From positions 1-20,545 of IMG/VR virus record IMGVR_UViG_3300009507_000171: a stretch of DNA of 20,545 bases; one strand, written 5' to 3'. The DNA is from a virus. The translations under genes were made by a program, and so were the position numbers. The notes beneath the pieces are model-generated. The model saw nothing but the letters and a program-made list of their open reading frames with translations, made no database searches and was not told the origin of the DNA. Of the stretch, positions 1-19,219 are shown one piece after another (the stretch's first letter is position 1; each line of letters begins with the position of its first letter).

Positions 1-3000
1 AGGCTGGTTATCGTAAAAGAAACTATCGTAAGTTCTATTGTCGTATCCGGTATTATTATTTTCTAAATCATACAATGCACTTGATAGCTGTATTGTACCG
101 TTTTGTCTGCCAATAGTATCAAAATTGATAGTATAATCTTCAGTAACTTCGTTTGCTACCTTTCTAAGCAATAACCATCCGCCTGTACCAATATTATTAA
201 TTTTAACAATTTCACCTATATTGATTTGATTAGTTTGTAGTTCATAACTTTCGTCAAATGTATAATTTATTTTTGTAAATTCGTTATATCCAGAGGCATA
301 CCAGTTTTCAAAGTCCCAGAAGATAGATGTATCAAACTCTTGTACTTGATACCTAAACCATTCTTTATTTTCGCCTAAACGATATATTGACCATTTGTTA
401 TATACACTGTTATCAGAATTAATTAAAACACTAAAAGGTCTTACACTAATAGTTGTAGCTTCGGTGTAACCTTTGCCAGGATCAATTACATCAATATCAG
501 TAACTTGACCTAAATTGTTTATTGTTATTTCAATTTGTGCATCTTCACCTACTCCATTAATAGTATATGACGGAGCAACTTTATAACCTCTGCCAGAATC
601 TTCGATTTCAATTCTAGTAATCTTGCCGTTTGTAACTATCGGAGTAAGTTTAGCAGGAGTAACTTTTGAAATACCAACAAACTGTAATTCATCTAATGTA
701 TCAATAGCAGTATCATATAAGTTTTCTGTTACTGACGGCGGTTCCTGTTTGCTAGAAAGATCACTAATATCATAAAGGTCAATAATAATGTTTTGTTTTA
801 AAACTAAATTAACTCTTTCAATTACTTGCTTTAATGCTTCTTCTCTATTAACAAACATACTCTGTCTAGGAGTAAATCTATTTCCATAACGATACTTAGG
901 ACTTATGTTAATATCAGGAACAACTTGTAGGTTTTCGTCATATCCTATTAGACTATCAAACCATTTGCGCTCAATATTAGAGTTTAATTTATCAGACTCT
1001 AATCCTTCGCTCATAATTTGATATTGTGTATGAGAATTTTGTTCTACATTTGGGCCTGAAAGCCACTGAATGTTTAATACTACATCATTATCATTTATAA
1101 AACTTTTGCAATTGTGTATTGCAAATTTATTAGATCCTAATAGACTTACAAAACGATATCCACTAGCTGCTGGATCTTTTATTAATCCAGCAACATCAGC
1201 AGCAGAAATTTTTCTGTTTGGTATGCTCGGCACTACTACCTTGTTTCTTACCCAGAAGAAGAATTTTGGAATAAATGTTCCAGTAGTAGCTTCATATTTT
1301 GTCTTAGAAACATATGTTGCATCGCCATATAAACTTACACCGCTGATTTGTTGTCTTAATCCTTCTTCGGAGTCGGCTAGTTGATCCCATTCGCTAGGTA
1401 ATTTATCACTTTCGACCCATTCATAAACATCAATAGTAGTTGCAGGAACAATTTTATTAAAATTATTAACCTGTCTTGTGATTTCACTTTGGTAAGGATA
1501 TAACACTCTTGATTGGCCAATATCCCACCATAACTGACCTACTTGTGCTTCGCCCCAAGTTTTATCAGGAGAATAATAAGTAAGATCTGAACTTAAATTA
1601 TATGATGCTGGATCATATGGTGTTTTAAATGATAGTTCTTGCTCAGCAGGTCCTGCAATTTTTCCTTGTACAGGATCAATATAATCAAGATATGTTAATA
1701 AGTTGTTAGTTCTTTTATTGTAAAGAAACACACCTTTTATTTTTTCTATATCTACAGGAGTAATTGCACTTCTAACAATGTTCCACGACTGTTTTTGAGG
1801 GTTTTTTACATAATCAATAATCGAACCTTCATAATTATCAGTAATTTCTATATTGGGCATACCTATATAAATGTGATTGCTTTGTAAAAATAGATTTTCT
1901 CCTACGAAGAACAAGTTAGGACTTAGTAAGAAGCTATCGTTTTCTAGATATTCAATGCCGTTATCTACTGGATCTTGTCTAGATAATGTTTCTGCATATA
2001 GATATTTTCCATTAACATCTTCAAATACATATATTGCACCACTATCGTAATTTACATTGTTAAATGTAGTAAATGCACCATCAAACGTAGTTTCGTTTCC
2101 GCTATTTTCATCAAAAGAAGTGATATTTTCTAAATCACCATTTAAGCTTGTTATTACTACTCTATTATTATCTGAAACAACAGTATATCCAAACTTTTCA
2201 GTTTGTTCATTTCTAGGGCTGTACAATGTTTGTACATGTGCAAATTTTCCATTTTGTTGTTTATACACATACACTTCACCTTGATCTAATTTCTTAGTAT
2301 CACTCCACGGTTCTGAAACTATTACTGTCATTCCGTCTGGACTTATGCTTATGCTATGTCCATACCCTGTGTTTGTTTCGTTGGAGTTAGTTCTAAGTAT
2401 TTGATCAAGATAGAATTTATCCTTAACACTTCTGTAAATTAAAACAACTACTTCGGGAGAACTGTCTGATGATAATACACAATTTGCTACTAGTACATCA
2501 CCATTTTTATTAACATCAAAAGACTTTGCAAACTGTAGTATATTAGTACTTGGATTGAAAATAGCTTCGTCTCTAGCATCTCTTTCAAGGGTCCAATTCG
2601 TTCTTGTAAATCCTCTACTAGAAGTATCGCTCGAAGGTGTAATATCTCTAGCAGCACTATAAACACTGTTTTCCCAAATTACTAATTCGCCTTGTAGGTA
2701 AGATCGGTCTTGATCAAACATATCAAAATCAAAATATGCAACACCAGTATCATTAGGCAAATAACCAATATAATCTACGCCGTCGGTTATTAAACTCCAT
2801 TCAGAAGATTTAAAATCCTTACCTGATGCAATGTTTGTTTTTGCTCTATAAAGTCGTTGATTTGAACTATCTACTCCGATTTCACTAACAATGTTACCTT
2901 CAAAGTATGGATAATTTTTATCAAACGCTCCTCTATAATTTTCATCAATATTATATTTGAAACTTATATCATTCCAGTATTCTGGAGATCTAACACTTAT

Positions 3001-6000
3001 AAATTCGACATCTGAACTAGGAACAAATGTTTTAGCTTGATAATAAAGTCCTAAATTTTCTACAATATCGCCTGTATTGTATTGTGCATCTTGATTCCAT
3101 TTTCCTTTAAACGATTCTAGATCACTATCTTTAATACCATGCTCAATAATTTCAATATTTCCGCTATTGCCAAAAGTAGTATTACCTCTAGCACTTACAA
3201 ATATTTTATAATATCTCTCACCAGTTTTTGCTACAGAAATTTTATTTCCGAAACCTCTTCCATTATCTCTATCTTGAGAAACAATAGATTTAACATATTG
3301 GAAAGTATTATTAGAATCTTTACGATATATTGATAATGCTCCGCCGTCATATGTATCTGTACCAAATTCATCTACATTTACATTATAAACTTGATTATAA
3401 TCTTTATTTGCACTATCAGGATAATTTGCTGATCTTGATTCCCCTATAATTACTTGCTTTTGTATTAACCAATATTCTTCATCAACAATTTCTGGATTAT
3501 CAACTAAATCAAAATCTTCAGGGGTTTCTAAAACAAGCAGCTTGCCTATTCCAAAATTGCCGTTGATTGAGACATTGTTTTCTTGTAAATCTAAGATGCC
3601 TGTGTCTCTATTAACTTCTCCTGGACGCACAACAATACCTTCCGGATTTGTATAATTGCCCCTGCGTGTAATTTCGTATTTAGAAATTGTGGCGCCAGCT
3701 AACCCCCAATTACCTGATATGTTTCTAATATATACCCTAACATTATTAAATTCTCTTTTGTACCATAGAACTTCTGCAACACTAGTTGTGAAAGTATTTA
3801 AAGAAAGGCCGCCGAATTCATCAACTGGTGTTTGCTTATCAGTGATAATATCTCCGTAACCGTTGTCTGTAATATTTCCAGCAAGATCAATTTGATAGCG
3901 AGGAGTTAATTCAAACGGATTGCCTGAGAAATCAAACTCGCTAAAGGTAAAATCAATAAATCCGTCCCATATATATTTTACTGGAAATTCTGAATTTATA
4001 TATTCTTTACTTTTAAACCCAGCTGAAGCAAAGTCTATTAGATTATCTTCTGTATCAATAAATCTAACATTTACAAGATTGTCAATTTGTGTATCGTTAT
4101 AGTCGTCACTTGCTCTAATTACTAGTAAATTAGATCTATACGTTCCTGAGACATCAAAAGGGTTACCTTGATAAGTTAAACTGAATGCTTGTGATGCCTG
4201 ATTCCTAACTCCTGTATAAGTTCCAACATTACTAGCTAGGGTGCTAGAGTTAGTATAGTTATTTGGATCTCTAGTATCTTCTGCAAGGATAAAGTCTTGG
4301 AATACTAACCCTTTGCCTGTATCATACCAAACATCACCATTATCATATTCAGGAACATTTAAAAGTAAGAATCCACCAAGTGAATCTAAAAAGTTTTCTG
4401 TTCTTTCAATACTATAAGGTCCTATCAAGACTTCGTCTGCATTTCTAAACAGATTACCTGTTAAGTCAAACTCACCGTTTTGATCTTTGGCATAAATTAC
4501 TAATCCTTCTTCAAGTGACTTTGTATAAACGACAGTTGCAGAACCAGTTAGTGTTGATATTATATCTCCATTTTGCGGAATACTAACATAGGGCCTAACT
4601 ACGAATACTTGATCGAATTTTTCTTGTACTTCGAAACTACCACTTATATCACTCGATGACGAAGTAGTTGAACCCTGCCACGGCGGATTAGATATTTCAT
4701 TACCATGAGATATACTTACTTCGTTATATTGTAAAACTATTTTGTCTCCTGCTCCGTACTCTGCCCTTGTTTTAGCTCCCAAGTATGTTAATTTCGGAAC
4801 TCTTACTAAGATGTGATCTGTATCAGTAATATTAGGTAGTCCAGGATTGCCTGTTAATAGCAATGTAATTAAAGTGCTATCACTGTCTTCTTCTTGATTA
4901 ATATCGTAATAACTATTATAACTTGAGAAAGGTTGTGCATCAATTGCCGGTATAATTTCTCTAGTTGCTTTCCACAACGATTCTTTATATTTGACTATAT
5001 CGTTTTTCTCATATGATTGAGTATCGACAAAATCACCTTTATATCTTGTAGGAATATTTGTTGCACTAGGAGTACTAACAAACATATACTCACCGTCGGG
5101 ACTCAATTCAACTGCATAGCCAAAATCAAGTTCGGCACTATCGCTAGACGAAAGTTCTCGAGGTGGTAATATCTCTTCTTCTAGCTTCCAGTTATATGTG
5201 TCGTTATTTCTTCTATAGACAAACGCTTTACCGTTGAAATATCCCGGCACACCTGTAGCAAGAGTTTTATTATTTTCTGTTACACTTAAATTTTTACCAA
5301 AGAAATGGTCTGTACTATCTTCAATATTTGGATTTGAAATTTGACTTATAAACCCAAATACTCTACTATTTTCTATTACTGCCCAGTTATCGTCATAACT
5401 ATCAATCCATAGTCGTTGATTTTCTGATTTATACTGCTGTAATAATTCGTTTCCTTTAGTAACATCTGGAACTCTAACATCCCTTAATAATATTATAGGA
5501 AGATTTAAAATAGTTTCATGATCAAGATCTAATTCTTCAGGTATCGGCCTGTTGTAAGGTATTTCAATAACTAATTCATTTCTTGTTACTTCGATAATTT
5601 TATAAAACGCAGGAAGATTTCTTGTATCGCCATTAACAACACCGATATAATCTCCTACATTAAAATATTCCTGAGGCCAACGATTTAAAATTAAACTTAT
5701 TTGTGCAGGTGATTGTGTTTCTGAAACTCCTGGTCTTATCTCAAAAACGCCGTCGATTTTATATGCGGTGTCGGTAAGTTGCAGCACTGACCAATTTCTG
5801 TTTTCGTCATTTACTACCCAAACGTAATCATCTTTTAATAAACGATTACTGTTAAGCCTGTTTAGATCACTTTTTCGTGTAACTCTAAATTTAACTTCTT
5901 CGTCTAGAACATAACCTGAAGTTTTAATATATTCTTCGTCTATTATTTTTGTCGGTAAAGGATTACTATCATAATCTTCTGGCTTTTCGTAAATTTGATG

Positions 6001-9000
6001 AGGTAACTGTCTATAAACTAAATCAGTGTTCGATGCTTCGGGCAAATTATATACTAGTTCTACAGGCTGTGGCTCTAGTCGATATTGCTCTTCATTTAAA
6101 ACAACTTCAAGTTCTGATATCTTATTTGTTGCTCCATATCTTCCTACTTCTATTGCCCAGTCTTCATAGAAATCTATACTATCTTTATCAGCACTGTTTA
6201 ATGCATCAAATAACTTGTCTATTGCATTTCTAGTACCTTTATCTGCTATCATGCCTTGATAAAATTTATATTGGCTAACATCGTCGTTGATAATATTAGA
6301 CAAATAGTTTCTACTTTGATATCCTATCAAGTGCTGCGCTAATTTCTGCTGTTCTGTATCAAAGTTGTCACTGTCTAAATCATAAAAATCTGCAAACTGC
6401 CCAATTCTATAATCAAAGTTAGTTTGTAATCTGTTTTCTGGTACTTCGTTAATACTCTGCCAATCTTTAGAATTAAAGACTTCCGAACCGGTGACTTTGT
6501 CAATTGCTATATAATAAAATTCTTTATACTTTACTAAACTTCCAATACCAAAGTCTTTCCATGGTTCCCATAATACAACTTTTGCATCGTCATAAACAAA
6601 TCCAGGAGCGTTTAATGTTCCATCCCACTCATCGGATCTATAACCAACAACTTTAATTCTGTCTTGCTTATATCCACTAAATGGTTGGTATAAAATATCA
6701 TTAAAAGAAGTCCTATTATCCAATAATACAACATGTTCTTTTTGTACAATAGGAAGACTGATATGATACAGCCCTTCGTCAGTGTTTGCAAGTCTAATAC
6801 CAAACGAGTTGTCTTTTCTCTCAACACGATTAAAATCTACAGATATTTGACGACCGTCAGCATTTAAAGTTAAACCGTAGTCATAGAAAAAGTTAGATAG
6901 ATTATCTACAGTAACAAAATCTCTTTGGAACTTGATATATTCAGCACTTGGACTAATAGTTAGTGCAGTACCTTCTGCCCAATTCTGTGTTGTCCAAAAT
7001 AAGAATTCTTTTGCAGACTGTACCCAGTTATTAACATATCCTGAATCAATATCAAACTCTTCAAATTCAAACCCTACAGATTTAAGATATTCACCGTAAC
7101 CTAATATAAAATCTACAACTTCTTGCGAGGTTTGGATTATTGTACCGTAAGTGAGTTTTTTAATTTCTCTTTTGTTAAAGGATTTTCTGAGTTGAGCACG
7201 TTTGCCGCCTTCTACAGGAATTTCCGGTAGTATAGCTAAATTTTCTGTAGAAAACACATCTCCCGAAGTAAAATTATTAGTAACTCTATAAAAGTCATTT
7301 CCAATATTAACAATAATACCCTTTGTATATCGTTTATTTGCACGCCATTCTACAAAATTCTCACTTACACCTCCAACTACTATAGTAGGATCTTGTGACT
7401 TTTGTATTGATTCAAAATATTTAAAGAACGGTGATTCAAAGTTATAACCACGAAGAATAAACCCTGCATTAGCCTTTTCAATTACAATACCACTGTAATT
7501 AACTTTTTCTAAAGGAGCACTTGTATTAAGAACTATCTTATAATTTTCTTCAGGAACAAAAACATTTCCTTCATTATAAGGAGTTCTAGAATCTAATAAT
7601 AGTTTTAATTTAGACTTTTCAGTAAAGCCGCCTAATTTAAATCCTAATTGATTTTTGATTAATTTAACTTCGTCTATATAATTTTCATATACTTTAGTTA
7701 CATATCCGCTGATATAATTATAAAGAAAATTCACTAGCCCACTTGTTAATATTCGTTTGTCGTCAGTGTATGTATTTGGAAATACTAGATCTTTTAATTC
7801 TAATTGTTTTCCACTTTCACTATATATTAGTTGTCCAGACAAGTTTCTAGAAATTCTAGAAACATCAAAGCCAATTCCAAATATTTTAGAAGGTTGATTT
7901 AACAAATAGCTTGTGATGAGAGCAAATGGATATTCTGAACTATTTTTCCAAGCAGTTTCAACAGGTGCATGATCGCCGAATGCAAACCTCTGTCTTGTAT
8001 AACTTGCAATATAATTTTTAGCAAAGCTGCTAGCTAAAGGACTAAGCAATTTACCTTGAGCATCGACCGGTATATGATTAGTTAATCCGTCTCTGGCATA
8101 TTTAAGCAACCTAATAACAGGCTTGTTAGGTTCTCTAATAATACCTTCTTCAAGATCTTCCCATAAAATTAAATTGTTTCTTGTATATGGTGCCGGACCA
8201 TAAACATCATTCCACCATGTAGGTTTGATGGGAAATCCTAGCATTTCCCAAGGATGTGTATGCGGACGGTCAGTATCATAAGCCTGTTTATAAACAGCTC
8301 TCCAGTAACCTGGCAAAACTTCATCATTTGGGCCGCTCATATTAGAATAATTAAACGTAAATTGATCCGATCTTTCGTAGAAACTGTTATCGGTATAATC
8401 ACTTTCAACTAGCTGTTGCCACTGAGTAAAATCAGTTAAAACAGATGAATCTATATCTTGTTTTGTAAAACCTGTATTTCTAAAATATCCGCCGACATAA
8501 TCATTTATATCAAAAATATTTGTATTATACGATTGCTTAATATTATTATAAATTCTTCTTTCAAATTCTAAAATTAAGTCGTCTCTATAATCATTAAATG
8601 CTAATGTTCTACTACCATCATGACCCTGAATTATTTTTACAGGCTCTCTATAGGTATCGTCTAAATAAATTTCTGGCTCGTATGCAGGATATAGCCCCAA
8701 CTTAGTCGGAGTAGGAGGTACAAAATTTCCGTCTGTTGATTCATATTCGTATATTTCAATTACATCGCCTGGAGCTTTGTCAGCTATGATTAAACTAAAT
8801 CCGTCATCGGTAAAACTATAATCTGTATTATATGTTAGCTGGGTGCCGTTAAGATATACTAAGACAGCACGCTGAGATAATTCTTTATTAGTATATGTTT
8901 GTGATATTGCATAAAAAGGATTATCACTGTCTAAAACTTCGTATTCTAATTTTTTCGAAGGGCCAAAAGGTGCCATATCGGAAAAATAAAACGGCATCTG

Positions 9001-11820
9001 AGGAACTTTGTCTTTGTTAATTTCTTGTAATATAGAATCTAAATGATCTTTGATAGGACCACTGAATTTAGAATTAGTAGATTCTGCTATTAATTGACGT
9101 TTAAATTTAGAATACTCTCTTTTTGTATAACGTATTGCCTTTATTATATTAAAGTTTTGATTAATAGTATGATACATCGGAAGGTTCAAAGATCCAGAAT
9201 GCTTTACAAATTTTCTTCCAAATACATCTAAGTCACCGAGGTCTCTTAAATTACTATTACCAGGATATACACCATCAAAACTTGATATTTCTGGTATCAT
9301 TGATTCAACATGATCAATAACTTCGCCCAGAGTAAATGTTTCAATATTTTCATTTAACGGATTTCTTTCAAGGTTATGTGGAAACTCGTAATATCCGTTA
9401 TTATTTTTTGCTACTGCACTTGTTGTTTTTATTACAACTTTTTTATTCTCTGCTAAAGGCTTATAAAATCTCACAAACGCAACGTTGTTTATTCGGTCAA
9501 TTTCATAATCTTTTAATCTTATTTGAAATTCATTATCTATATATACAACAACTTTAAGATCAGTTAAGTCTCCTGAACGATTATAAACATCAATTTCAAA
9601 GAAATTATTTAAATCTTCACTCGAAATATATTCTTTAACTACATACTGTTTAGATTTAATAGGCGCACTTGACCATCCATTAACATAATTGAATGTATCT
9701 CTATCTTCGTATTTTCTTAAATTTGCAGTATCAGTTCTAACAGTAATTACATCTGTTTCAGTTTGAACTGTAAAAAAGTCAGTTAAAAGATTAAACTCAA
9801 ATTCAATGTCGCCGCTATTTTCAATATTTCTATAATTTAAAGGAAATCCTAATTCTTCGTCATTAAGCCCGTCGCCTTTTTTATAAGAAAATAGTTTTGT
9901 TCCTTGAAATGTACTACTATCAAAAATATTAAGGTCGGCGTAGAGATTTCCGTTTGGACAACAAAGATCAAACAACGGTTCTTGATTATTTGTTTCTTTT
10001 GCTTGTCCTATCTTCCATTCGTTATCATTATAAAACCAGCTCGAACCTGCAAATTTTTCGCCCTGTGTTACTAGGACTGTTTCTAGATCTAATGGATCAG
10101 TGTCTTCTTCTTCAATTAAACTTATTTGTCGTTGGGCGGCGGTTTGTACTGTTATAAAATTAACTTTGTAAATTTTGTTTTTTACAAGAACATCTGTATC
10201 AGCAGTAAATAAGATTCGCATACCTTGTGTAATATCAATACCGTCGATATTATAACCAATACTTCCTTCAATTGTACTAAACACGTCTGTTGTAAAATTG
10301 TCAATTAAATCAATATCTTTTTTAGCAAATGTACCAAAGTTATAAAGTTTTAAACCTGCTTCAAATTCAATGATAGGTCTTTTAGCTCTAGCATCTTGAT
10401 CAATTTCAGGCAAAATGTCATTAATTAATGCACTTTCTTCTATTACATCTCTATGGAACCATCTATTATATCTTGCCCAAGCATTTCTATCCTTACTGGC
10501 ACGATTAGAAACTATATAATCTTTTGTTTTAGGATAGCTACTTGAATTTCCAAAAGGCAATCTATCAAACCCTTGACTATCAAATGGTACTAATAAATTA
10601 TCTGCATAAGCTGCTGGAATAATCAAGTTTCTTTCTGAAACTAGTTTAATTTTATCACCGACGCCTTCAACATACCATTCATTTTCTGCATAAACATCAG
10701 GAGTTACTAAACCTTGAAAATGTACTTTCATTCCGTTAGATAATGTGATGCCATTTTCACTTGTATAAGTTTTTTTACCTAGTATTTCGTTTTCTACATC
10801 AATTGCTGTATTTTCTTCAATATCGTAAATGCGCATTTGTCCGCTAGTATTCACATCATTTTTTGAAATATAATATAAATTATTAGGAGCATTCATAGGA
10901 ATAGTAAATTCAATAGTACCTTTTTCAAGATACATTGTCGCTACTTGTTCGCCTTCTTCACCTAACTTTCTTATACCATCCGGATATAACTCACTTACAT
11001 TTTCGTCATCTTCAAATGTTACGGTGCCGTTTGATGGTAAGATAATAAAATCGCCGATGTCATAGCTTACACCCTGTTCGTCATAGAGGGTTGCATCAAA
11101 TAATCCTTCTCCTTGAAGTCCTTCAGATCCAGCAGTAAGAATAGCTGATCCTGGCGTAAAGCTTCTACTAACTGCAAATGCAATAGGATGTCCCGGAACA
11201 TCTACTTCAAAGCGATAAGTTTGTCCTCTGTATAGTTTTAATGTGGGATTTCTAGTAAATCCGTTAGGTGTAAAAACATATGCAAAGTTATTATCGTCTT
11301 CAACAACTTCAATAGTATATGTACTTTCAACTTCTAAATTTTGTCCTCTAATATCAATTGTACTAGGACCATTTGGCAACCAATAATATTCACGGAAATT
11401 TACAAACTTATCCCAGTCAATATTAGGATTCCATGCATAACTTTCTTGACTGTTTAATCTGCTGTGGTCATCAACATTAGCACCGAAGGTACTTAATTGA
11501 TTTATGTAATCGTTATAGTCAGCATAAAAATTAACATTATCTAATTCGTCTTTAATTACCGCTGCTGGCTCAAACTGGTAATCTTTTCTATTTTTTGAAA
11601 TATCGCCTATATAATAATCATTAGCAGGATTGTAAGCTTTGGCTGTAGTTCTCCCTATATAACCAGAAAGTTTTTCAGCGACACCATTTTGTATTAACTG
11701 ATCAACAGTTGCTTGTAGGAAATTAACATTCGCAGTTGTTCTAAAAAATTTCGGAAGTAAATTAGAAGATTTTCTTTTATTATTACCAGGTGTTGGCGGT
11801 ACTAAATCATTTTGAGCCAT
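1..11820 (-). CDS. Giant virion structural protein, gp7-position baseplate/tail protein, 3' end outside window
   Basis: The frame starts at ATG 11820-11818 and I read all 3,940 codons to the window edge without meeting a stop, so the product exceeds about 430 kDa. The start shares its A with the gp6 stop (TAATG) and has GGAGG 12 bases upstream. Visible parts by residue: 1-55, a wedge-like start (LLPKFFRTTANVNFLQATV); 185-333, a cupredoxin-like beta domain; 1181-1220, motifs RPHTHPWEMLGF and APYTRNNLILWEDLEEG; 1830-1900, HLIGYQSRNYL, FYQGMIADKGT and FYEDWAIEVGRYG; 2167-3351, seven FG-GAP-like propeller units with two insertions; 3731-3793, two GxGY repeats. Four CBM5/12-like motifs are scattered at 1492-3062. 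No signal peptide or membrane segment is seen. Position after spike, gp25 and gp6 suggests the gp7/P2 I/Afp12 role (wedge to fibre connection), but T4 gp7 is about 1,030 residues and I cannot show homology. A fused wedge-plus-fibre protein is an alternative. Confidence 0.85.
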   Translation of the reverse strand, partial: MAQNDLVPPTPGNNKRKSSNLLPKFFRTTANVNFLQATVDQLIQNGVAEKLSGYIGRTTAKAYNPANDYYIGDISKNRKDYQFEPAAVIKDELDNVNFYADYNDYINQLSTFGANVDDHSRLNSQESYAWNPNIDWDKFVNFREYYWLPNGPSTIDIRGQNLEVESTYTIEVVEDDNNFAYVFTPNGFTRNPTLKLYRGQTYRFEVDVPGHPIAFAVSRSFTPGSAILTAGSEGLQGEGLFDATLYDEQGVSYDIGDFIILPSNGTVTFEDDENVSELYPDGIRKLGEEGEQVATMYLEKGTIEFTIPMNAPNNLYYISKNDVNTSGQMRIYDIEENTAIDVENEILGKKTYTSENGITLSNGMKVHFQGLVTPDVYAENEWYVEGVGDKIKLVSERNLIIPAAYADNLLVPFDSQGFDRLPFGNSSSYPKTKDYIVSNRASKDRNAWARYNRWFHRDVIEESALINDILPEIDQDARAKRPIIEFEAGLKLYNFGTFAKKDIDLIDNFTTDVFSTIEGSIGYNIDGIDITQGMRILFTADTDVLVKNKIYKVNFITVQTAAQRQISLIEEEDTDPLDLETVLVTQGEKFAGSSWFYNDNEWKIGQAKETNNQEPLFDLCCPNGNLYADLNIFDSSTFQGTKLFSYKKGDGLNDEELGFPLNYRNIENSGDIEFEFNLLTDFFTVQTETDVITVRTDTANLRKYEDRDTFNYVNGWSSAPIKSKQYVVKEYISSEDLNNFFEIDVYNRSGDLTDLKVVVYIDNEFQIRLKDYEIDRINNVAFVRFYKPLAENKKVVIKTTSAVAKNNNGYYEFPHNLERNPLNENIETFTLGEVIDHVESMIPEISSFDGVYPGNSNLRDLGDLDVFGRKFVKHSGSLNLPMYHTINQNFNIIKAIRYTKREYSKFKRQLIAESTNSKFSGPIKDHLDSILQEINKDKVPQMPFYFSDMAPFGPSKKLEYEVLDSDNPFYAISQTYTNKELSQRAVLVYLNGTQLTYNTDYSFTDDGFSLIIADKAPGDVIEIYEYESTDGNFVPPTPTKLGLYPAYEPEIYLDDTYREPVKIIQGHDGSRTLAFNDYRDDLILEFERRIYNNIKQSYNTNIFDINDYVGGYFRNTGFTKQDIDSSVLTDFTQWQQLVESDYTDNSFYERSDQFTFNYSNMSGPNDEVLPGYWRAVYKQAYDTDRPHTHPWEMLGFPIKPTWWNDVYGPAPYTRNNLILWEDLEEGIIREPNKPVIRLLKYARDGLTNHIPVDAQGKLLSPLASSFAKNYIASYTRQRFAFGDHAPVETAWKNSSEYPFALITSYLLNQPSKIFGIGFDVSRISRNLSGQLIYSESGKQLELKDLVFPNTYTDDKRILTSGLVNFLYNYISGYVTKVYENYIDEVKLIKNQLGFKLGGFTEKSKLKLLLDSRTPYNEGNVFVPEENYKIVLNTSAPLEKVNYSGIVIEKANAGFILRGYNFESPFFKYFESIQKSQDPTIVVGGVSENFVEWRANKRYTKGIIVNIGNDFYRVTNNFTSGDVFSTENLAILPEIPVEGGKRAQLRKSFNKREIKKLTYGTIIQTSQEVVDFILGYGEYLKSVGFEFEEFDIDSGYVNNWVQSAKEFLFWTTQNWAEGTALTISPSAEYIKFQRDFVTVDNLSNFFYDYGLTLNADGRQISVDFNRVERKDNSFGIRLANTDEGLYHISLPIVQKEHVVLLDNRTSFNDILYQPFSGYKQDRIKVVGYRSDEWDGTLNAPGFVYDDAKVVLWEPWKDFGIGSLVKYKEFYYIAIDKVTGSEVFNSKDWQSINEVPENRLQTNFDYRIGQFADFYDLDSDNFDTEQQKLAQHLIGYQSRNYLSNIINDDVSQYKFYQGMIADKGTRNAIDKLFDALNSADKDSIDFYEDWAIEVGRYGATNKISELEVVLNEEQYRLEPQPVELVYNLPEASNTDLVYRQLPHQIYEKPEDYDSNPLPTKIIDEEYIKTSGYVLDEEVKFRVTRKSDLNRLNSNRLLKDDYVWVVNDENRNWSVLQLTDTAYKIDGVFEIRPGVSETQSPAQISLILNRWPQEYFNVGDYIGVVNGDTRNLPAFYKIIEVTRNELVIEIPYNRPIPEELDLDHETILNLPIILLRDVRVPDVTKGNELLQQYKSENQRLWIDSYDDNWAVIENSRVFGFISQISNPNIEDSTDHFFGKNLSVTENNKTLATGVPGYFNGKAFVYRRNNDTYNWKLEEEILPPRELSSSDSAELDFGYAVELSPDGEYMFVSTPSATNIPTRYKGDFVDTQSYEKNDIVKYKESLWKATREIIPAIDAQPFSSYNSYYDINQEEDSDSTLITLLLTGNPGLPNITDTDHILVRVPKLTYLGAKTRAEYGAGDKIVLQYNEVSISHGNEISNPPWQGSTTSSSSDISGSFEVQEKFDQVFVVRPYVSIPQNGDIISTLTGSATVVYTKSLEEGLVIYAKDQNGEFDLTGNLFRNADEVLIGPYSIERTENFLDSLGGFLLLNVPEYDNGDVWYDTGKGLVFQDFILAEDTRDPNNYTNSSTLASNVGTYTGVRNQASQAFSLTYQGNPFDVSGTYRSNLLVIRASDDYNDTQIDNLVNVRFIDTEDNLIDFASAGFKSKEYINSEFPVKYIWDGFIDFTFSEFDFSGNPFELTPRYQIDLAGNITDNGYGDIITDKQTPVDEFGGLSLNTFTTSVAEVLWYKREFNNVRVYIRNISGNWGLAGATISKYEITRRGNYTNPEGIVVRPGEVNRDTGILDLQENNVSINGNFGIGKLLVLETPEDFDLVDNPEIVDEEYWLIQKQVIIGESRSANYPDSANKDYNQVYNVNVDEFGTDTYDGGALSIYRKDSNNTFQYVKSIVSQDRDNGRGFGNKISVAKTGERYYKIFVSARGNTTFGNSGNIEIIEHGIKDSDLESFKGKWNQDAQYNTGDIVENLGLYYQAKTFVPSSDVEFISVRSPEYWNDISFKYNIDENYRGAFDKNYPYFEGNIVSEIGVDSSNQRLYRAKTNIASGKDFKSSEWSLITDGVDYIGYLPNDTGVAYFDFDMFDQDRSYLQGELVIWENSVYSAARDITPSSDTSSRGFTRTNWTLERDARDEAIFNPSTNILQFAKSFDVNKNGDVLVANCVLSSDSSPEVVVLIYRSVKDKFYLDQILRTNSNETNTGYGHSISISPDGMTVIVSEPWSDTKKLDQGEVYVYKQQNGKFAHVQTLYSPRNEQTEKFGYTVVSDNNRVVITSLNGDLENITSFDENSGNETTFDGAFTTFNNVNYDSGAIYVFEDVNGKYLYAETLSRQDPVDNGIEYLENDSFLLSPNLFFVGENLFLQSNHIYIGMPNIEITDNYEGSIIDYVKNPQKQSWNIVRSAITPVDIEKIKGVFLYNKRTNNLLTYLDYIDPVQGKIAGPAEQELSFKTPYDPASYNLSSDLTYYSPDKTWGEAQVGQLWWDIGQSRVLYPYQSEITRQVNNFNKIVPATTIDVYEWVESDKLPSEWDQLADSEEGLRQQISGVSLYGDATYVSKTKYEATTGTFIPKFFFWVRNKVVVPSIPNRKISAADVAGLIKDPAASGYRFVSLLGSNKFAIHNCKSFINDNDVVLNIQWLSGPNVEQNSHTQYQIMSEGLESDKLNSNIERKWFDSLIGYDENLQVVPDINISPKYRYGNRFTPRQSMFVNREEALKQVIERVNLVLKQNIIIDLYDISDLSSKQEPPSVTENLYDTAIDTLDELQFVGISKVTPAKLTPIVTNGKITRIEIEDSGRGYKVAPSYTINGVGEDAQIEITINNLGQVTDIDVIDPGKGYTEATTISVRPFSVLINSDNSVYNKWSIYRLGENKEWFRYQVQEFDTSIFWDFENWYASGYNEFTKINYTFDESYELQTNQINIGEIVKINNIGTGGWLLLRKVANEVTEDYTINFDTIGRQNGTIQLSSALYDLENNNTGYDNRTYDSFFYDNQP
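442..630 (-). repeat. Two-copy GxGY beta repeat (within giant protein)
   Basis: Residues 3731-3793 hold two related segments about 40 residues apart: NGKITRIEIEDSGRGYKVAP and LGQVTDIDVIDPGKGYTEAT. Both have the pattern G.(I/V)T.I.(I/V)...G.GY. This short repeat is typical of extended beta-rich phage tail and fibre proteins. With only two copies it is probably one small domain. Confidence 0.6.
2635..2700 (-). repeat. CBM5/12-like motif, copy 4 (within giant protein)
   Basis: Residues 3041-3062, core YLQGELVIWENSVYSAARDI ending TP, followed downstream by a Trp (RTNWTLER). It lies near the end of the second insertion, just before propeller unit 4. Confidence 0.45.
3019..3099 (-). repeat. CBM5/12-like motif, copy 3 (within giant protein)
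   Basis: Residues 2908-2934, core YNTGDIVENLGLYYQAKTFV preceded by W six residues earlier and followed by a later EYW. This is the best match to the small CBM5/12 pattern W....Y..GD.V...G..Y.A. It follows propeller unit 3 at the start of the second insertion. Confidence 0.5.
4948..5013 (-). repeat. CBM5/12-like motif, copy 2 (within giant protein)
   Basis: Residues 2270-2291, core YEKNDIVKYKESLWKATREI ending IP. It lies immediately after the break in propeller unit 2, at the start of the roughly 567-residue insertion. Confidence 0.45.
7261..7347 (-). repeat. CBM5/12-like motif, copy 1 (within giant protein)
   Basis: Residues 1492-1520 read W....Y..G.IV...G..FYR, with core YTKGIIVNIGNDFYRV. 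This is the aromatic/GD.V/aromatic spacing of small chitin-binding type modules. It is the most divergent copy, with the acidic residue after G replaced by Ile. Confidence 0.35.
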
Positions 11821-14800
11821 TAGTAACTATAGCCTCCGTTGCTATTAGATGATATATTTGTTGTAGTATTATTTGAACTTTGTACGCCTGTATTTGTACT
11901 TGATACAGAACTTATAACTTTTCCGCTAGATTGTAATTTTGTAGCTGTAATTTCATCAATGATATCAATATCATTTACTGATGCTCCACTAATAAAAATT
12001 TCATCAGCTTCGGATTTTATTTCAAATAAACTTCCAAAAGACTGATCTAACTGTTTAGGAACAATCACTATACTTGCTAGCTTTGGAGCCATTTGATTCA
12101 TTATAAATGTACTCAGTTCTTGGAAGTAAAAAGTATCGCCAAAGTCCCAGTTTTCGCTACTGAAGAATCTATTAATATTTTCAATTACTTGAGATTTAAG
12201 CTCATTATTATTTAATACTAGATCAAGATTTCTAATAATTTTAAATTCAACTTGTAAATCAGGAATAGCTTTCTCTCCAAATAGTACTTTGTACTTAACT
12301 GGATGATATATAACTTCGTCACTAATTGACTTTATTTTGCTGATTTCGCTGCCGTATGTTCTGAACAATAAATCACTACTCGGAGGTAATGGTTTAACTG
12401 GAAGTTCTCCACTTAACCATAGTCTAGTTTGTGAATCATAATTCCTTGTTAAAACATAAGTGTCAATAATATTACTTACACTTGGATCAATTCTTTGATT
12501 ACTATCTGCAACATGTACATACTGGAACTTAAAGTTATCTCTTCCTACAAATGCTTTGTAATCGCTAACAAGTTTAAAACTGTTATTCTGTTTATCTATT
12601 TGTTTAAAAATATCTAATTCAGAAATATAAAAAACTTGCTTATCGTCGTATTGGCTCCATGCGCCAATACTAGACTCGTCTGGAACTGTAAAAATAGTAT
12701 TATTAGAATTGTCAAAGTATGTTAAAGTTTCAACACCTTCTTTGCCAATCGATCTTTTTTGGAATACAAATTTTTGTATTTGATTTACACTCGGTGCGAT
12801 CAATTCTTCAAACAAATCAATGTCATCGACAATTCCGTCATCGTCTGAATCATAAAAGTCTAATTGAACTTTTTTAGTATCTACATATCCGCTTTTATCT
12901 TTATACGAGTCAGTAACAGACCAAGTAAAGTTTCTAGTAAAAGGTTCTAGACTATCAGGCTTATTATTAATAGATAAGATATCTAACTTATCTTTAAGAA
13001 GTTTTCCTGTTTTACTATCGTAAATTTTATCACTGCTGTCATAATAAAAACGAACTTCGTCTTTGCTTTCAAACAGATATCTTAAATTACGATATCTAAT
13101 TTCGTAATTTTCTCCGTTGGTTTTAAAATAAAGTAACCAACTAGAGTCTAAATTTTGTGCATTTATATTTCCAGCTTTGCCTAAATTAAAATTAGAAATT
13201 GTATTAATGTTTTCTTCTAATATAATTTTCCAAGCTCCTTCATTTTGATCAAATCTTAAAGCATAATCGTTATATGCAAATGTCTGATCTATAATCTGTG
13301 ATATAGTATCGTCATTTAAAGTGTTTGATATTACAGGTTTAACTTCTGTAAGAATGCATCCATTAGGAACATTATCGTTTAAGAAGATTGGGCCAACTGG
13401 ATTACTGTTATCAGTACCGTCACGATCTACAGTTACTACACTAGTCCAGATATATGTCTTGCTGCCCACATGATCTGGGGCACCGAGCATTAACTTATTC
13501 CCAGCCATAAAGTGATAACCTTCAGGAGCAATAAATTTTAGCATAGTACCCTTTTTTACAAAACGTAAATTATTAGCAGTAAATGATCCAACTTGATATA
13601 TTGAATTATCTAAATCTGTAAAATACCCAGTATTCTCATTTGTTCCGCTAGTTTTTTGATTCCATGTTGCATTAAGATCTACAGTATTAATCTTAGAATA
13701 ATTTTTATAATAAAAATTCTTAATATTAGGGTTTCTAATAATCGGAAGAATTGTATTATACACAGCACCTTCTATATCAGTCTGAGTTGTAAAGTTAAAT
13801 TTAGCTTTGTCTATAAATTCTTCTCTATATAATATACCGTCATTAGCATATAAATTTGTATTACTATATTTTCCAGTAACATCTCGTAAATCAAAATATC
13901 TTGAAATACCACTAGAAATTCTATTTACAGATTTAACCTTTAAAATATCTTGACTAACTCCTAGAGGTCCGATATTATAATCTTCAGCAGTTACTAATCT
14001 GTTTTGTGTATAATATGTTGCAGGTGCATTTTGTTTAATACTTGCATTTGATTCTGCAGGAGCAGCATTACTTACTGTAGCTTTTAAACTCATTGTAAGT
14101 GTTAAAGTTTCACTAGTATTACTTCTACTCACATAAGGTATTTTAATATTAATATTATTCATACCTTGAGGAGAAATATTTAAAAATCTATTAGCACTTG
14201 TTCTATAATATGTTCTATAATTTCCACTAGGTAAATCGCCAAAAACTCCATCAGCAAATATTAAGTTAATTCTATCTTCTATCCTTGAACTAACTGCATA
14301 AATGTTTCTAATACTTTTTAGCAAACTATTATATATTACATTGTTGCCTTCAACAGCATCAACTTTAGTCCAAAGTTCATTTTCAAATCCGTTTAAATCA
14401 AGACTGTATAACCAAACATCAGAATTATTAATATTTGTACTATCAATGCCAACTATTTGATTTGGTACAGGATTATCAACTTTAAACTCTCCGCGTTCTA
14501 ATTTGCCTTGACGGAAATGCATAAAGAACCCAGTATTGCTACTTCCTGCACCTTGCCCGTCGTCTCTATATAAGAAACTAGGATTGTTAGCAGGTAGCGG
14601 TGGCTCTTCTACAATTTGATTGCCGCTAATTGCAGTTGATACAACTTCAAATTTAGTGCTAACACCTTGTATATTTTTACTAAAGCTATAAACAGGCAAA
14701 CCTGTGTTTAAAGAATTAATTTTATACTGCTCTGTAGGTACTCCATTAATATCTGCGCTCCTCAAAGGCTGGCCAATTGGGTTACTTAATGGTAATGAAT

Positions 14801-15284
14801 TATTTAGAATTTTAATAAATTGTTCAAACCATAATGTATTACTTGGATCATTCCAACTTATTGTAGAACCACTAAGGTTTAATCCTGAACTATCAAAGAT
14901 ATTTTCTGTTGTTTTGATTGATTCAATTTTTAATAATCCGTTTGCTGCTTGATTACGCTTAGGATTATAACTTACTAATCTAGCTAATCGTAAAATGCTT
15001 TCTCTACGCTCTGCTGTTTCAAGAAAGTTTTCACGTGCATTTAGATCAACTCTAAAGCTTAAATTTTGCCCTAGAAATGCGATTAAATCGATAAGTGCAA
15101 CATATTCACTTGTCTCAATATAATCATTAAAGTCTTCTGGATAATTTTCTCTTAGATACTGAATCATAGTTCTACGCAAGTTGTCAAAGTCGTAACTTTG
15201 AAAATCTGCGTTTCTAAAACTTTGATAAATTCTCTTCCAATCTTGATTGATTAGAAGTCTATTCTGCCTATCAGATACTGACAT
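11820..15284 (-). CDS. Baseplate wedge protein, gp6-like (Baseplate_J family), enlarged
   Basis: 1,154 residues; T4 gp6 has about 660. In T4, gp6 dimers form the inner baseplate ring and contact gp25, gp53 and gp7. The N-terminal part matches the family: ALIDLIAFLGQNLSFRVDL followed by ENFLETAERRESILRLARLV (about residues 63-105) and the Baseplate_J signature RLVTAEDYN near residue 430, followed by SVNRISSGISRYFDLRD. Residues 812-823 form an EF-hand-like loop (DSDDDGIVDDID). The C-terminus is a Ser/Asn-rich tail ending GGYSY. The start at 15284 is supported by AAGGA seven bases upstream and a candidate late promoter. The gene follows gp25 by 51 bases and its TAA stop overlaps the giant gene's ATG. 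The extra roughly 500 residues, mostly in the C-terminal half, have no assignment from me. Confidence 0.88.
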   Translation of the reverse strand: MSVSDRQNRLLINQDWKRIYQSFRNADFQSYDFDNLRRTMIQYLRENYPEDFNDYIETSEYVALIDLIAFLGQNLSFRVDLNARENFLETAERRESILRLARLVSYNPKRNQAANGLLKIESIKTTENIFDSSGLNLSGSTISWNDPSNTLWFEQFIKILNNSLPLSNPIGQPLRSADINGVPTEQYKINSLNTGLPVYSFSKNIQGVSTKFEVVSTAISGNQIVEEPPLPANNPSFLYRDDGQGAGSSNTGFFMHFRQGKLERGEFKVDNPVPNQIVGIDSTNINNSDVWLYSLDLNGFENELWTKVDAVEGNNVIYNSLLKSIRNIYAVSSRIEDRINLIFADGVFGDLPSGNYRTYYRTSANRFLNISPQGMNNINIKIPYVSRSNTSETLTLTMSLKATVSNAAPAESNASIKQNAPATYYTQNRLVTAEDYNIGPLGVSQDILKVKSVNRISSGISRYFDLRDVTGKYSNTNLYANDGILYREEFIDKAKFNFTTQTDIEGAVYNTILPIIRNPNIKNFYYKNYSKINTVDLNATWNQKTSGTNENTGYFTDLDNSIYQVGSFTANNLRFVKKGTMLKFIAPEGYHFMAGNKLMLGAPDHVGSKTYIWTSVVTVDRDGTDNSNPVGPIFLNDNVPNGCILTEVKPVISNTLNDDTISQIIDQTFAYNDYALRFDQNEGAWKIILEENINTISNFNLGKAGNINAQNLDSSWLLYFKTNGENYEIRYRNLRYLFESKDEVRFYYDSSDKIYDSKTGKLLKDKLDILSINNKPDSLEPFTRNFTWSVTDSYKDKSGYVDTKKVQLDFYDSDDDGIVDDIDLFEELIAPSVNQIQKFVFQKRSIGKEGVETLTYFDNSNNTIFTVPDESSIGAWSQYDDKQVFYISELDIFKQIDKQNNSFKLVSDYKAFVGRDNFKFQYVHVADSNQRIDPSVSNIIDTYVLTRNYDSQTRLWLSGELPVKPLPPSSDLLFRTYGSEISKIKSISDEVIYHPVKYKVLFGEKAIPDLQVEFKIIRNLDLVLNNNELKSQVIENINRFFSSENWDFGDTFYFQELSTFIMNQMAPKLASIVIVPKQLDQSFGSLFEIKSEADEIFISGASVNDIDIIDEITATKLQSSGKVISSVSSTNTGVQSSNNTTTNISSNSNGGYSY
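11833..11837 (-). promoter_or_regulatory. Ribosome binding site of the giant structural gene
   Basis: GGAGG on the minus strand, 12 bases before ATG 11820-11818 and inside the last codons of the gp6 gene. The spacing is long, and the start overlaps the gp6 stop by one base, so termination-reinitiation coupling probably contributes. Confidence 0.6.
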
Positions 15285-15335: not shown

Positions 15336-15782
15336 TTAATTTAATAGACCAGCTCTTTGGTCAAATCTAAACTGCATAGTTTGTTGTAAATTGTACGGAA
15401 TGAATATTAAATCAGCCTCAACCTGTATTCCGCTTTCGTAGCTATCGACTAAAATTCTAACTGGATTTACCCTAGGATCATAATTTACAATTTTAGTTAC
15501 ATCTTCTAAAATTGCCTGGCGAAGACTTTCTGTAAATGGTTCAAAAAGTGCATCCCAGATAATTGTTCCAAAACTCGGATCACTTAACTTTTCACCTTTT
15601 CTAATATGAAAATGATTAATAATGTCTTGTTTTACAAGTTCAAAATTATAAAGATTATAAGTGTTACTGGTATAATCTGTCGTAGAAAATCCTCTATAAG
15701 CAACTTCATTTTTGCTTAAATCTTCTACCTTAGCTGGCGCTACTGTTACTCTTTTATAGAGGTTTTTTTCTAAATTACTCAT
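15336..15782 (-). CDS. Baseplate wedge / sheath initiator, gp25-like
   Basis: 148 residues from ATG 15782; T4 gp25 has 132. The gp25/GPW family joins the wedge core and nucleates the contractile sheath. Family features: KQDIINHFHIRKGEKLSDPS (51-70), FGTIIWDALFEPFTESLRQA (71-90) and NYDPRVNPVRI (100-110), followed by a beta-rich end. I chose this start over an upstream in-frame ATG at 15824 because it follows the spike stop by eight bases, has AAAGG 11 bases upstream and gives the family length. The longer form would overlap the spike gene by 34 bases and add 14 residues (MVPKWYSGRKVNIT) that look like read-through of its coding end. The gene lies between spike and gp6, as W lies between V and J in P2. 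Confidence 0.93.
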   Translation of the reverse strand: MSNLEKNLYKRVTVAPAKVEDLSKNEVAYRGFSTTDYTSNTYNLYNFELVKQDIINHFHIRKGEKLSDPSFGTIIWDALFEPFTESLRQAILEDVTKIVNYDPRVNPVRILVDSYESGIQVEADLIFIPYNLQQTMQFRFDQRAGLLN

Positions 15783-15790
15783 AGTAATAT

Positions 15791-18103
15791 TTACCTTTCG
15801 CCCTGAATACCACTTTGGAACCAAGCACTTTCATCAGCACGTCTTTCAATAAGTCCTTGCAAAGGTCTGCCGCCTGCATTTACATATAATAACATTTTTT
15901 GCGCAATAGTAGGGTTATCTCTAGTACCATTTTCTGTAACCTGAGACAAGGCTCCTGTACCTAGGTTATATGCAAAGCTAGTAAGAGAATCTATTTGTGC
16001 AGGGGTCCAACTATATCCATTATCTTGACCAAAGCGTTCAACTTCTTGTCTAAATGTTCCGATACTACTAGATAATCTACGTTCAGCTTCTTCTGAAGTA
16101 ATTACTTCAGTTGAACTTGTTGCTCTAGTGCCGTAACCGATACTGTATTGTGCATAATCCCAGAATGCTCTAGCTCTACCATCTGGCAATTCTTCGCCAT
16201 ATCCTTCTTTAGCTTTAATAAATTCAAATAAATCTGACGGAACTTGTCCGGTTGGACCTGATCTTCCTCTAAGTCCATCATCAGGACCTAACGGATCTAC
16301 ACCCGGAGGAGAGGTGGTTGCAGGCGGTGTTGCTGTAACTCTGTCTCCTTGCCCTGCTATGATTCCTCTATTTGCATCGTTAAATGCTCTTGTGTCGCCA
16401 CCTTTACTAAATGTATCTGGAGTTAAAGGTCTAAATGGCGTTTCTGCTAACCCGCCTGGAGATTCTCTATCCGTTTCATGAGTTTTTACAGCCAAAGGAT
16501 TCATATTTTCGTGATGAGCCCAAGGTTCATGTTGCGGTGACCTACAGAGAATACTTTCGTATATTTCAATATTTCCAGATCCGGGAGGAACATAACTAAG
16601 ATTAATTGTTGGTAAATGTACAACTTCTACAGCATCTTCTGGATCTGCTGACGGTCGTGCTAGACCACTGTTAAGGTGTATATCCGGACCTGCGCCGCCG
16701 CCGGCGTCGATCATCACGAGACTTGCTGCTAAATCATTTATATTAGATTCGCTTTCTCTATACCAACTAAATCCGCTAGTTTCGTGAGTCATTTGATCTG
16801 AACGCTGATACCTATTTTTGTTTGTATGGAAATGATAATCGCCTTTTACTAGAACTTTCATTTTGTCTTCAACAACAGTATCTGAAAACTGATGCACAGT
16901 TAGTTTGTAATCTTTACCAACATCAATATTAGTATTAAACACACTCTCTATTTGAATTCTACCGGACTCGTTACCATTAACATCGTTTTGTTGTTCGCCG
17001 CTATATCTAGCAGTAGCTTTCATATTAATATTTCTACCTGCTTCCATATTGATATCACGTTCTGCTGTAATATTAAGGTCAGCTGCTGTCATTATACTAA
17101 TACTATCATCAGCGTGAATATCAATTTTACCATCACTTGTTAATTCTACCCATGCTGTTCCTCGAGAATTAGAAATATAAATCAAATCCTCCGAGTTGTG
17201 TAGTAGTATTTGATGCCCAGTTCTAGTTCTTAGTCTTGTTAATTCGTTGTGAGGTATAGTTTGGTCGCCAGTAACATCACCTGCTTCTACATTTGCATAA
17301 TCTGGAGGACCGTCTTCTGCATGTGTTCTACGAATAAACTTATCGTCTCCGTCGTCAAATACTAAACTAGAACCTCCTAATCTATTATAAAATTGTTCAG
17401 CTTTCGATGTTTGATTTCCGTAAGGATATGTCGGAGCTCCGGGACGTTTATCAAGAGGTCCAGGACTACTAAACCCAAAAACCATACTAGGAATATCTCG
17501 TCTAGCACTACTAGTAGTTGTGCCTCGTATTTCATCTTTGAGCAGACCTTGTGTTTCTAAAACTTGTGTAAAATCTTTATTATATGGCTTTCTAAACTTA
17601 GTAGGATCTTTTCCCTCGCCAGTTTCAACTCTTTTGTTATATTCTCCTACTGGTAATTTAAAATTTCTCAAAGCACTAGGTGTAGCATCAGTTGTTGCTT
17701 TGGTACTAGCTCTGCCATCAGGTAACATAAAGTTCATAAATTGATCTTGAACACACCCTATCCAATAACCCTGTGCAGCATTGTCTTCTAAAAACATAAC
17801 AACTACCTTTGTACCTACATCCGGAGGCACCATCCAAAAGCCATAAGATTTTTGCGTATAATCATACCCATCATTTGGTTGCTCGTGCCGCTGAGGAGTT
17901 GCTCCATAAAAAGGACTTAGATATCTAACTGTGTGTGTTTGGCCAGTTCTTTCTGGATTATTGCCTGTACCTGTATATTTTAAAAGCTCAACTTCTAAAG
18001 TACCCATATAAGTAGTATCTAAATGATTAACTACAATAGCTTCATACGGACCGCCGGCGCCGTGATGACTTCCGTATGCTCCTGTTCTTGTTAATTCATT
18101 CAT
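15791..18103 (-). CDS. Central tail spike with C-terminal lysozyme, gp5-like
   Basis: 770 residues. It should form the trimeric needle that punctures the envelope and digests peptidoglycan. Order: OB-fold at about 17-120, with GTLEVELLKY, the gp5 block SYGFWMVPPDVGTKVVVMFL and AQGYWIGCVQDQFMNFM; linker; beta-helical needle at about 290-430, with short alternating repeats as in ISIMTAADLNITAERDINME; HEPWAHHENMNP at 525-536; Gly/Pro linker 550-620; GH24-type lysozyme at about 624-765. The lysozyme shows FIKAKEGYG (candidate general acid E633), FWDYAQYSIGYGT (D649), LTSFAYNLGTGAL and a GLIERRADE end. In T4 gp5 the lysozyme lies between OB fold and needle; here it follows the needle. E-to-D spacing is 16 residues against 9 in T4 lysozyme, because of the insert GEELPDGRA, and Ser stands where GH24 usually has Thr in TIGYG. 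Activity is likely but unproven. Confidence 0.92.
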   Translation of the reverse strand: MNELTRTGAYGSHHGAGGPYEAIVVNHLDTTYMGTLEVELLKYTGTGNNPERTGQTHTVRYLSPFYGATPQRHEQPNDGYDYTQKSYGFWMVPPDVGTKVVVMFLEDNAAQGYWIGCVQDQFMNFMLPDGRASTKATTDATPSALRNFKLPVGEYNKRVETGEGKDPTKFRKPYNKDFTQVLETQGLLKDEIRGTTTSSARRDIPSMVFGFSSPGPLDKRPGAPTYPYGNQTSKAEQFYNRLGGSSLVFDDGDDKFIRRTHAEDGPPDYANVEAGDVTGDQTIPHNELTRLRTRTGHQILLHNSEDLIYISNSRGTAWVELTSDGKIDIHADDSISIMTAADLNITAERDINMEAGRNINMKATARYSGEQQNDVNGNESGRIQIESVFNTNIDVGKDYKLTVHQFSDTVVEDKMKVLVKGDYHFHTNKNRYQRSDQMTHETSGFSWYRESESNINDLAASLVMIDAGGGAGPDIHLNSGLARPSADPEDAVEVVHLPTINLSYVPPGSGNIEIYESILCRSPQHEPWAHHENMNPLAVKTHETDRESPGGLAETPFRPLTPDTFSKGGDTRAFNDANRGIIAGQGDRVTATPPATTSPPGVDPLGPDDGLRGRSGPTGQVPSDLFEFIKAKEGYGEELPDGRARAFWDYAQYSIGYGTRATSSTEVITSEEAERRLSSSIGTFRQEVERFGQDNGYSWTPAQIDSLTSFAYNLGTGALSQVTENGTRDNPTIAQKMLLYVNAGGRPLQGLIERRADESAWFQSGIQGER
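15794..15798 (-). promoter_or_regulatory. Ribosome binding site deciding the gp25 start
   Basis: AAAGG on the minus strand, 11 bases before ATG 15782-15780. It lies just before the TAA of the upstream spike gene, as in coupled phage genes, and favours the 148-residue form over the one starting at 15824. Confidence 0.5.
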
Positions 18104-18162: not shown

Positions 18163-19200
18163 TTAGTTTATGTATCCTTGCTCTGTTGCATAAGCACGCT
18201 CGCCTGGTGTTAATCTTGCTCGGGCTTCGCCGCCGCCTAAATCTGTGTTAAAACTTCTTAATGCCTCTATACTATCTATATCAGATTGTGTATATTGCTC
18301 GCCAGAATCACTTACAAATCTTCCTTCTTCGGCATTGGTTTGTCCATATGCCCCTGAATTAGACGGTTGAGTCGTAGTAACTGATCGTACGTTCTGTCGA
18401 GGTCCTATTTGAGGAGGACTAGTACCTCTAACACCTCGAATATTTCTTGTGCCGCCGCCAAGTCCTGGGCCGGAGCCTCCGCCGTTTCCTGGAGGGCCGT
18501 CGCCTGCTTCACTAAACACTTTTCTACCTGTTAGAAAATTATATCTATCTTCATTAGGTCTAATAGGAACCCAAGGCCTTACAGTAGAAACAGATTGTAA
18601 TCTATTTTGAGTAGGCGGGGGTGCTGAAGCTTGTGTAGTTCCCGAAGCAGTTTCTGTAATACCACCGAGTGGGTTTCTCGGAACTACAAATGTCCTTCCT
18701 CCAATATTCCTTAATGTTTCTGTTGCTTGATCATATGCACCTGAAAATATTCTACTTCCTTCTGCTAGACCAGTGTCTGATAGTGTTCTCGGATCTAGCA
18801 AATCCGGATTTCCTACAACTGACGATACTGCATTAGTTAATGCTGTGCTAGAAAGATTAGCACCTGCTAAGGCACTTTCAATGCCTCCATTTAAACTTAC
18901 TGCATTTCTGTCGCCGATGATAGTTGCATCTGCAAATTCTTGAGAGATACTTCTTACACTTGTAGGAGACAACATATTAGGATTTGTGCTATCAAATACA
19001 CCATTAACTACTTGAGCTCCTGCAGATTGTGCAGCATTTACAATTTCATTTGCTCTGGTAGAATTAATTTCAGCATTAGGCGGAACAACAGCAAACTCAG
19101 TAAAGCCCTGTCCTCTTAAGTTTTCTATAATTGAAGATAAATTTTCAGAACTATTTGTTCCTGCTGTATCTTCTGATCCTAGTGAAATTAGTGCTCTCAT
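18163..19200 (-). CDS. Unrecognised hub-region protein with SGNH-like blocks and Gly-rich C-terminus
   Basis: 345 residues; no confident family. Residues 1-110 look like an alpha/beta domain: ISLGSEDTAG (5-14) resembles the GxND block of SGNH hydrolases, then VVPPN (38-42), then FDSTNPNMLSPTSV (69-82), resembling the D..H block with Asn for His. IIGDRNAV (94-101) recalls the GDS block with Arg for Ser, but it comes after the others, not first. If related, it is permuted and probably catalytically dead. Residues 190-345 are Pro/Gly/Ser-rich, with a glycine cluster near 240-255. No signal peptide or membrane helix. The start follows the hub stop by four bases with GGGA seven bases upstream, so translation is probably coupled to the hub. 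Placement between hub and spike suggests a virion or assembly role. The C-terminal half could instead be a flexible linker. Confidence 0.75.
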   Translation of the reverse strand: MRALISLGSEDTAGTNSSENLSSIIENLRGQGFTEFAVVPPNAEINSTRANEIVNAAQSAGAQVVNGVFDSTNPNMLSPTSVRSISQEFADATIIGDRNAVSLNGGIESALAGANLSSTALTNAVSSVVGNPDLLDPRTLSDTGLAEGSRIFSGAYDQATETLRNIGGRTFVVPRNPLGGITETASGTTQASAPPPTQNRLQSVSTVRPWVPIRPNEDRYNFLTGRKVFSEAGDGPPGNGGGSGPGLGGGTRNIRGVRGTSPPQIGPRQNVRSVTTTQPSNSGAYGQTNAEEGRFVSDSGEQYTQSDIDSIEALRSFNTDLGGGEARARLTPGERAYATEQGYIN

Positions 19201-19219
19201 TATATCATCCCATTATATC
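19198..19219 (-). repeat. Nine-base direct repeat at the hub/345-residue gene junction
   Basis: The minus strand carries GATATAATG twice, separated by GGAT. The first copy encodes the hub C-terminus (Asp-Ile-Met); the second contains the next gene's ATG. GGGA between them (19211-19208) acts as the ribosome site. The two ATGs are in different frames, so they are not alternative starts for one product. Confidence 0.6.

Follow-up and report, generated by a model that had tools for sequence, protein, structure and literature searches.

The analysed window (20,545 nucleotides) is the whole of the viral record IMGVR_UViG_3300009507_000171. Its spike, gp25-like, gp6-like and giant genes follow one another in this order on the minus strand. 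The gp5-like spike (15791–18103, minus strand; phrog_13211) has a C-terminal lysozyme domain (Pfam Phage_lysozyme), which is located at the far C-terminus of the protein (residues ~644–758); in T4 gp5, the lysozyme domain is carried mid-protein. The gp25-like sheath initiator (15336–15782, minus strand; Pfam GPW_gp25, phrog_261) is presumed to start at an internal ATG, and is followed by a gp6-like baseplate wedge protein of 1,154 aa (11820–15284, minus strand), which matches phrog_10646 (E-value, 1.9 × 10−295) and phrog_219 (E-value, 3.7 × 10−27), as well as TIGR02243 below the cut-off. A 345-aa protein (18163–19200, minus strand), encoded between the spike and a hub-like gene, has no PHROGs or Pfam family match. 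In the 432-aa protein (19205–20503, minus strand), a C-terminal M15-peptidase-like pattern (S.RH..G.AADV...HVDIA) was noticed by eye; it was unsupported by Pfam, NCBIfam and PDB sequence searches. The homolog of this protein in one relative (locus L187) is larger and has an endolysin-like C-terminus. Across the window (1–20545), the GC content is ~0.29–0.34 in the gp6-like and giant genes versus 0.38–0.42 in the spike and hub-like genes.

The giant ORF occupies positions 1–11820 of the minus strand. As originally predicted, the frame running from the ATG at 11820 to base 1 contains 3,940 codons and no stops, as evidenced by both the ORF listing and the translation; the probability of such a stop-free run at the base composition of the window is ~10−149. 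GC at codon positions 1, 2 and 3 of this frame is ~0.44, 0.34 and 0.19, respectively, and is uniform along the full length. The 5′ end is complete, with the start codon overlapping the stop codon of the gp6-like gene as TAATG and GGAGG present upstream, while the 3′ end is cut at the end of the record, and hence the stop codon lies outside the window. The last encoded residue, 3940, is aligned with residue 3992 of the 5,248-residue protein of L009, the closest complete relative among the matches listed, which implies that ~1,250 residues are absent and that the copy in the window is about three-quarters complete. The full-length L009 protein has a computed mass of ~596 kDa.

A scan of IMG/VR with residues 901–2200 yielded at least 599 relatives, and 80 loci were taken for inspection. 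Half of these (40 of 80) carry a complete, uninterrupted ORF of 4,922–5,330 aa, representing 31 distinct proteins, and thus supply the end of the ORF that the flanking sequence was expected to reveal. The original prediction had named an assembly error, by which separate genes are joined, as one outcome that would count against it, and the window is indeed a lone metagenomic contig without reads to check. Since the same single uninterrupted ORF is found in 40 complete relatives from many metagenomes, as well as in isolates, and codon-position GC is uniform along the frame, a joining error is ruled out for practical purposes, and its probability is negligible. The ORF in the window is therefore most of one real, single gene of ~5,000 aa when complete. 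Two of the relatives, L033 and L030, share the same N-terminus and have ORFs of 4,513 and 5,011 aa, respectively, and either a frameshift or a true truncation may account for the difference. The family also occurs on viral contigs of up to 607,744 bp (L221, L210, L239), and thus reaches very large phages.

Comparison with PHROGs revealed that the giant matches phrog_10938, annotated as "virion structural protein", over long stretches (E-value, 0; 1069.7 bits), and the same family is matched by all 104 members of the alignment built for the core described below. Homologs from jumbo-phage isolates, namely RaK2, 121Q/PBECO4, PA5oct (gp355), Atu_ph07, Salicola phage SCTP-2 and Vibrio phage 2.275.O, share ~25–30% identity with the giant of the window and align to it at residues ~15–160, 330–950, 1030–1960 and 3350–3690. 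They are 3,323–4,449 aa in length, versus 4,922–5,330 aa for the marine form; across jumbo isolates, homologs of 3,047–4,449 aa are present. The conserved N-terminal domain (residues 1–170, LLPKFFRT...NFREYYWLP; positions 11311–11820, minus strand) is shared by the marine and jumbo homologs. Like the giant of the window, these isolates combine the place after gp6 with a KGT core: the giant gene directly follows a gp6-like gene in RaK2, 121Q, PA5oct, Atu_ph07 and Vibrio phage 2.275.O, and the SCTP-2 homolog is found in the same kind of gene cluster. The placement of the gene in the gp7/P2 I position, proposed from the order spike, gp25, gp6 and giant, is supported by the gp6-like–giant order in these five phages. 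In PHROGs, phrog_10938 is filed under head and packaging, which conflicts with the wedge position and core of the family.

The carbohydrate-binding-like and propeller-like modules that had been proposed for the giant were recovered by Pfam CBM_5_12 and FG-GAP matches and by the structure match of one module. Six CBM5/12-like modules were located on the minus strand of the window. The first (residues 1485–1530; 7231–7368) was found by Pfam CBM_5_12 together with a small HMM built from seeds of the window itself, on which several of the six mainly rest. The second (residues 1747–1790; 6451–6582) matches the phage Milano baseplate chain 8fqc_P1 in structure (Z, 7.2; 1.4 Å over 45 residues), and chitin-binding domains are also among its structure matches. 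The remaining four served as seeds of the HMM: module 3 (residues 2260–2307; 4900–5043), module 4 (residues 2904–2952; 2965–3111), which is also the best Pfam CBM_5_12 stretch in window positions 1501–5220, module 5 (residues 2962–3011; 2788–2937) and module 6 (residues 3031–3078; 2587–2730). An FG-GAP beta-repeat (residues 3149–3186; 2263–2376, minus strand) exceeded the cut-off of Pfam FG-GAP_2, and further FG-like repeats were seen, by pattern only, near residues 2172, 2234, 2856 and 3210. By the seed-built HMM, three relatives have 7, 5 and 4 CBM5/12-like modules, whereas Atu_ph07 has two above the threshold, PA5oct has one and 121Q has none; overall, the marine form carries 4–7 such modules compared to 0–3 in the phrog_10938 isolates. 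In the marine form, module 2 is an insertion located just ahead of the core, and it is absent from this place in the jumbo isolates. The giant thus seems to have expanded through the insertion of binding-type modules, with the core kept constant. These modules may bind host glycans.

The most conserved 100 residues among the marine relatives (residues 1801–1900; mean identity, 75%) contain the KGT motif at residue 1861. This stretch belongs to a Tail_P2_I-like core (residues ~1795–1895; 6136–6438, minus strand) with the elements FYQGMIADKGT (K1861) and YEDWA, which are invariant or almost so family-wide. The pattern FY.G....KGT...EEWA is retained in the majority of the distant homologs, with KGS replacing KGT in RaK2. 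P2 gpI, a protein of 176 aa compared to the ~5,000 aa of the giant, has the same order of elements (helix, KGT, helix, EW) at similar spacing. A core profile of 150 columns, derived from 104 relatives, was compared by hhalign with 14 gpI-like proteins, and KGT was aligned on KGT over 73 columns (E-value, 1 × 10−4; probability, 57%; score, 32.8). The best scores among 100 column shuffles and 55 reversed slices were 20.7 and 16.0, respectively, and the best other slice of the giant reached 24.6. With the same tools, T4 gp7, an accepted relative of gpI, gave an E-value of only 0.016 against the gpI profile. With a small early gpI set, the core scored no better in hhalign than reversed slices, and the E-value of 1 × 10−4 was obtained with the deeper set of 14 proteins. 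Pfam Tail_P2_I (PF09684) has no match in the window and none over the cut-off in the relatives. Judged from these profile comparisons, homology of the KGT core to the P2 gpI/Tail_P2_I family can be proposed with moderate confidence.

The motif was originally likened to FYSTKGI of T4 gp7, and both motifs are found as claimed. The KGT motif is a weak but real mark of homology to P2 gpI, whereas the link to T4 gp7 is not significant: neither the slices of the giant, whose comparison to T4 gp7 had been suggested as a check, nor the core gave a significant hhalign match to this protein, and the window contains no match to its family (phrog_964). When the N-terminal LLP segment was added to the core, no clear gain resulted. 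T4 gp7 (1,032 aa) shares the place after gp6 and the FY..KG motif with the giant. The giant gp7 of cyanophages, represented by the 5,195-aa gp7 of P-SSM2 and by phrog_2885, has the gp25-gp6-gp7 gene order, giant size and KGI/KGT motif in common with the giant of the window, and the KGI core of P-SSM2 gp7 matches T4 gp7 at the profile level (probability, 96%). In this protein, KGI lies near the N-terminus, at residue 209, versus residue 1861 in the giant, and no overall sequence relation between the two was found by BLAST. Given P-SSM2 gp7 and the jumbo homologs, the size that had been regarded as very large for a phage protein is not exceptional in kind: giant gp7-type proteins are already in the databases, and the giant of the window is not a new kind.

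For the suggested check of virions of a related isolate, data exist for two relatives. The sequence record of the PA5oct giant (gp355) carries an ESI-MS/MS note, and the virion proteome of phAPEC6 includes gp245 (381.88 kDa; 17 peptides), adjoining the wedge protein gp244 of 131.18 kDa (PMC7247149). The computed masses of 121Q gp582 and gp583 are 381.87 and 131.21 kDa, and gp245 was taken as the ortholog because both mass and neighbour agree with this pair. The giant is thus a virion component in homologs, namely those of PA5oct and phAPEC6.

AlphaFold modelling gave a pLDDT of 54 for residues 1480–2050 with 30 close relatives, too low for use, and a pLDDT of 75 overall with 104 diverse relatives, but just ~55–65 in the core. 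When the core modelled at this level was compared with solved structures by Foldseek and VIA-align, no wedge was matched, and only the CBM module was recognised. A structure search of BFVD returned mainly proteins of the phrog_10938 family, and PDB sequence searches of the giant matched no solved chain.

Based on the gene order, the core profile match, the conservation of the core and virion presence in relatives, it is likely (estimated probability, about 75%) that the giant is a gp7/gpI-like baseplate wedge protein enlarged by glycan-binding-like modules and FG-GAP beta repeats. Its place corresponds to that of gp7, P2 gpI and TssG, and the (gp6)2-gp7 wedge, with one gp7 per two gp6, is common to T4, XM1 and T6SS (PMC10457771, PMC6300606). 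One copy of the giant would join two adjacent gp6-like copies via the helical KGT core (residues ~1795–1895) through predicted contacts, six such wedges would be built round the hub, and the gp25-like protein would start the sheath on the wedge-hub assembly. The CBM5/12-like modules, the FG-GAP/propeller-like repeats and other beta domains would presumably project from the wedge, where they may carry fibres and touch cell-surface glycans as putative receptors.

An unlikely alternative is that the giant is a peripheral baseplate or fibre-anchoring protein beside gp6, with the true gp7-like subunit being a small, unrecognised gene elsewhere. The mostly beta-rich length with its CBM-like and FG-GAP modules speaks for such a role, as do the undetected homology to T4 gp7 and the absence of a wedge from the fold search of the core. 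Nevertheless, the core matches P2 gpI in register and above controls, and the position after gp6 is fixed across distant phages. In addition, no separate gp7 (phrog_964) was found in six complete jumbo genomes, a weak argument as the profile also misses the phrog_10938 family. A tail tape measure or another central tail protein could also be a very large single protein within a tail module, one of the outcomes that the original prediction had set against itself, but this identity is highly improbable in view of the beta-rich composition with glycan-binding-like modules, the wedge gene order and the membership in phrog_10938; in Atu_ph07, moreover, the tape measure is predicted to be another protein, gp701.

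If the giant is a gp7/gpI-like wedge protein, insertions outside a small conserved core can enlarge a baseplate wedge five-fold, and a wedge role is assigned to a large, common family hitherto labelled just as a virion structural protein, the gain in annotation being the link of phrog_10938 to the baseplate wedge. Should the modules prove to be glycan binders, recognition of the host by such phages may sit within the wedge itself. The original idea that one protein could unite the roles of wedge, fibre and receptor-binding platform is plausible, given the module content and the adjoining fibre genes in a relative. A bolder scenario, in which a gp7-like wedge of a widespread marine phage lineage absorbed glycan-binding and propeller modules serially, and in which the ~596 kDa protein forms the wedge, docks the fibres as an arm and is also the primary binder of glycan receptors, is put forward tentatively and is considered rather doubtful.

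A relative on a contig of 137.7 kb encodes, after the giant, a small protein and then three fibre-like proteins with a common N-terminal domain. In L186 (13511–19197), the common N-terminal domain of the three consecutive fibre-like genes after the giant corresponds to phrog_15511, phrog_14394 and phrog_8309, which suggests a common docking site for these proteins. The presence of fibre-like genes after the giant is consistent with a fibre-docking role of the wedge. The tail region of the same marine phage also contains three tandem radical-SAM-like genes (L186, 3701–7695).
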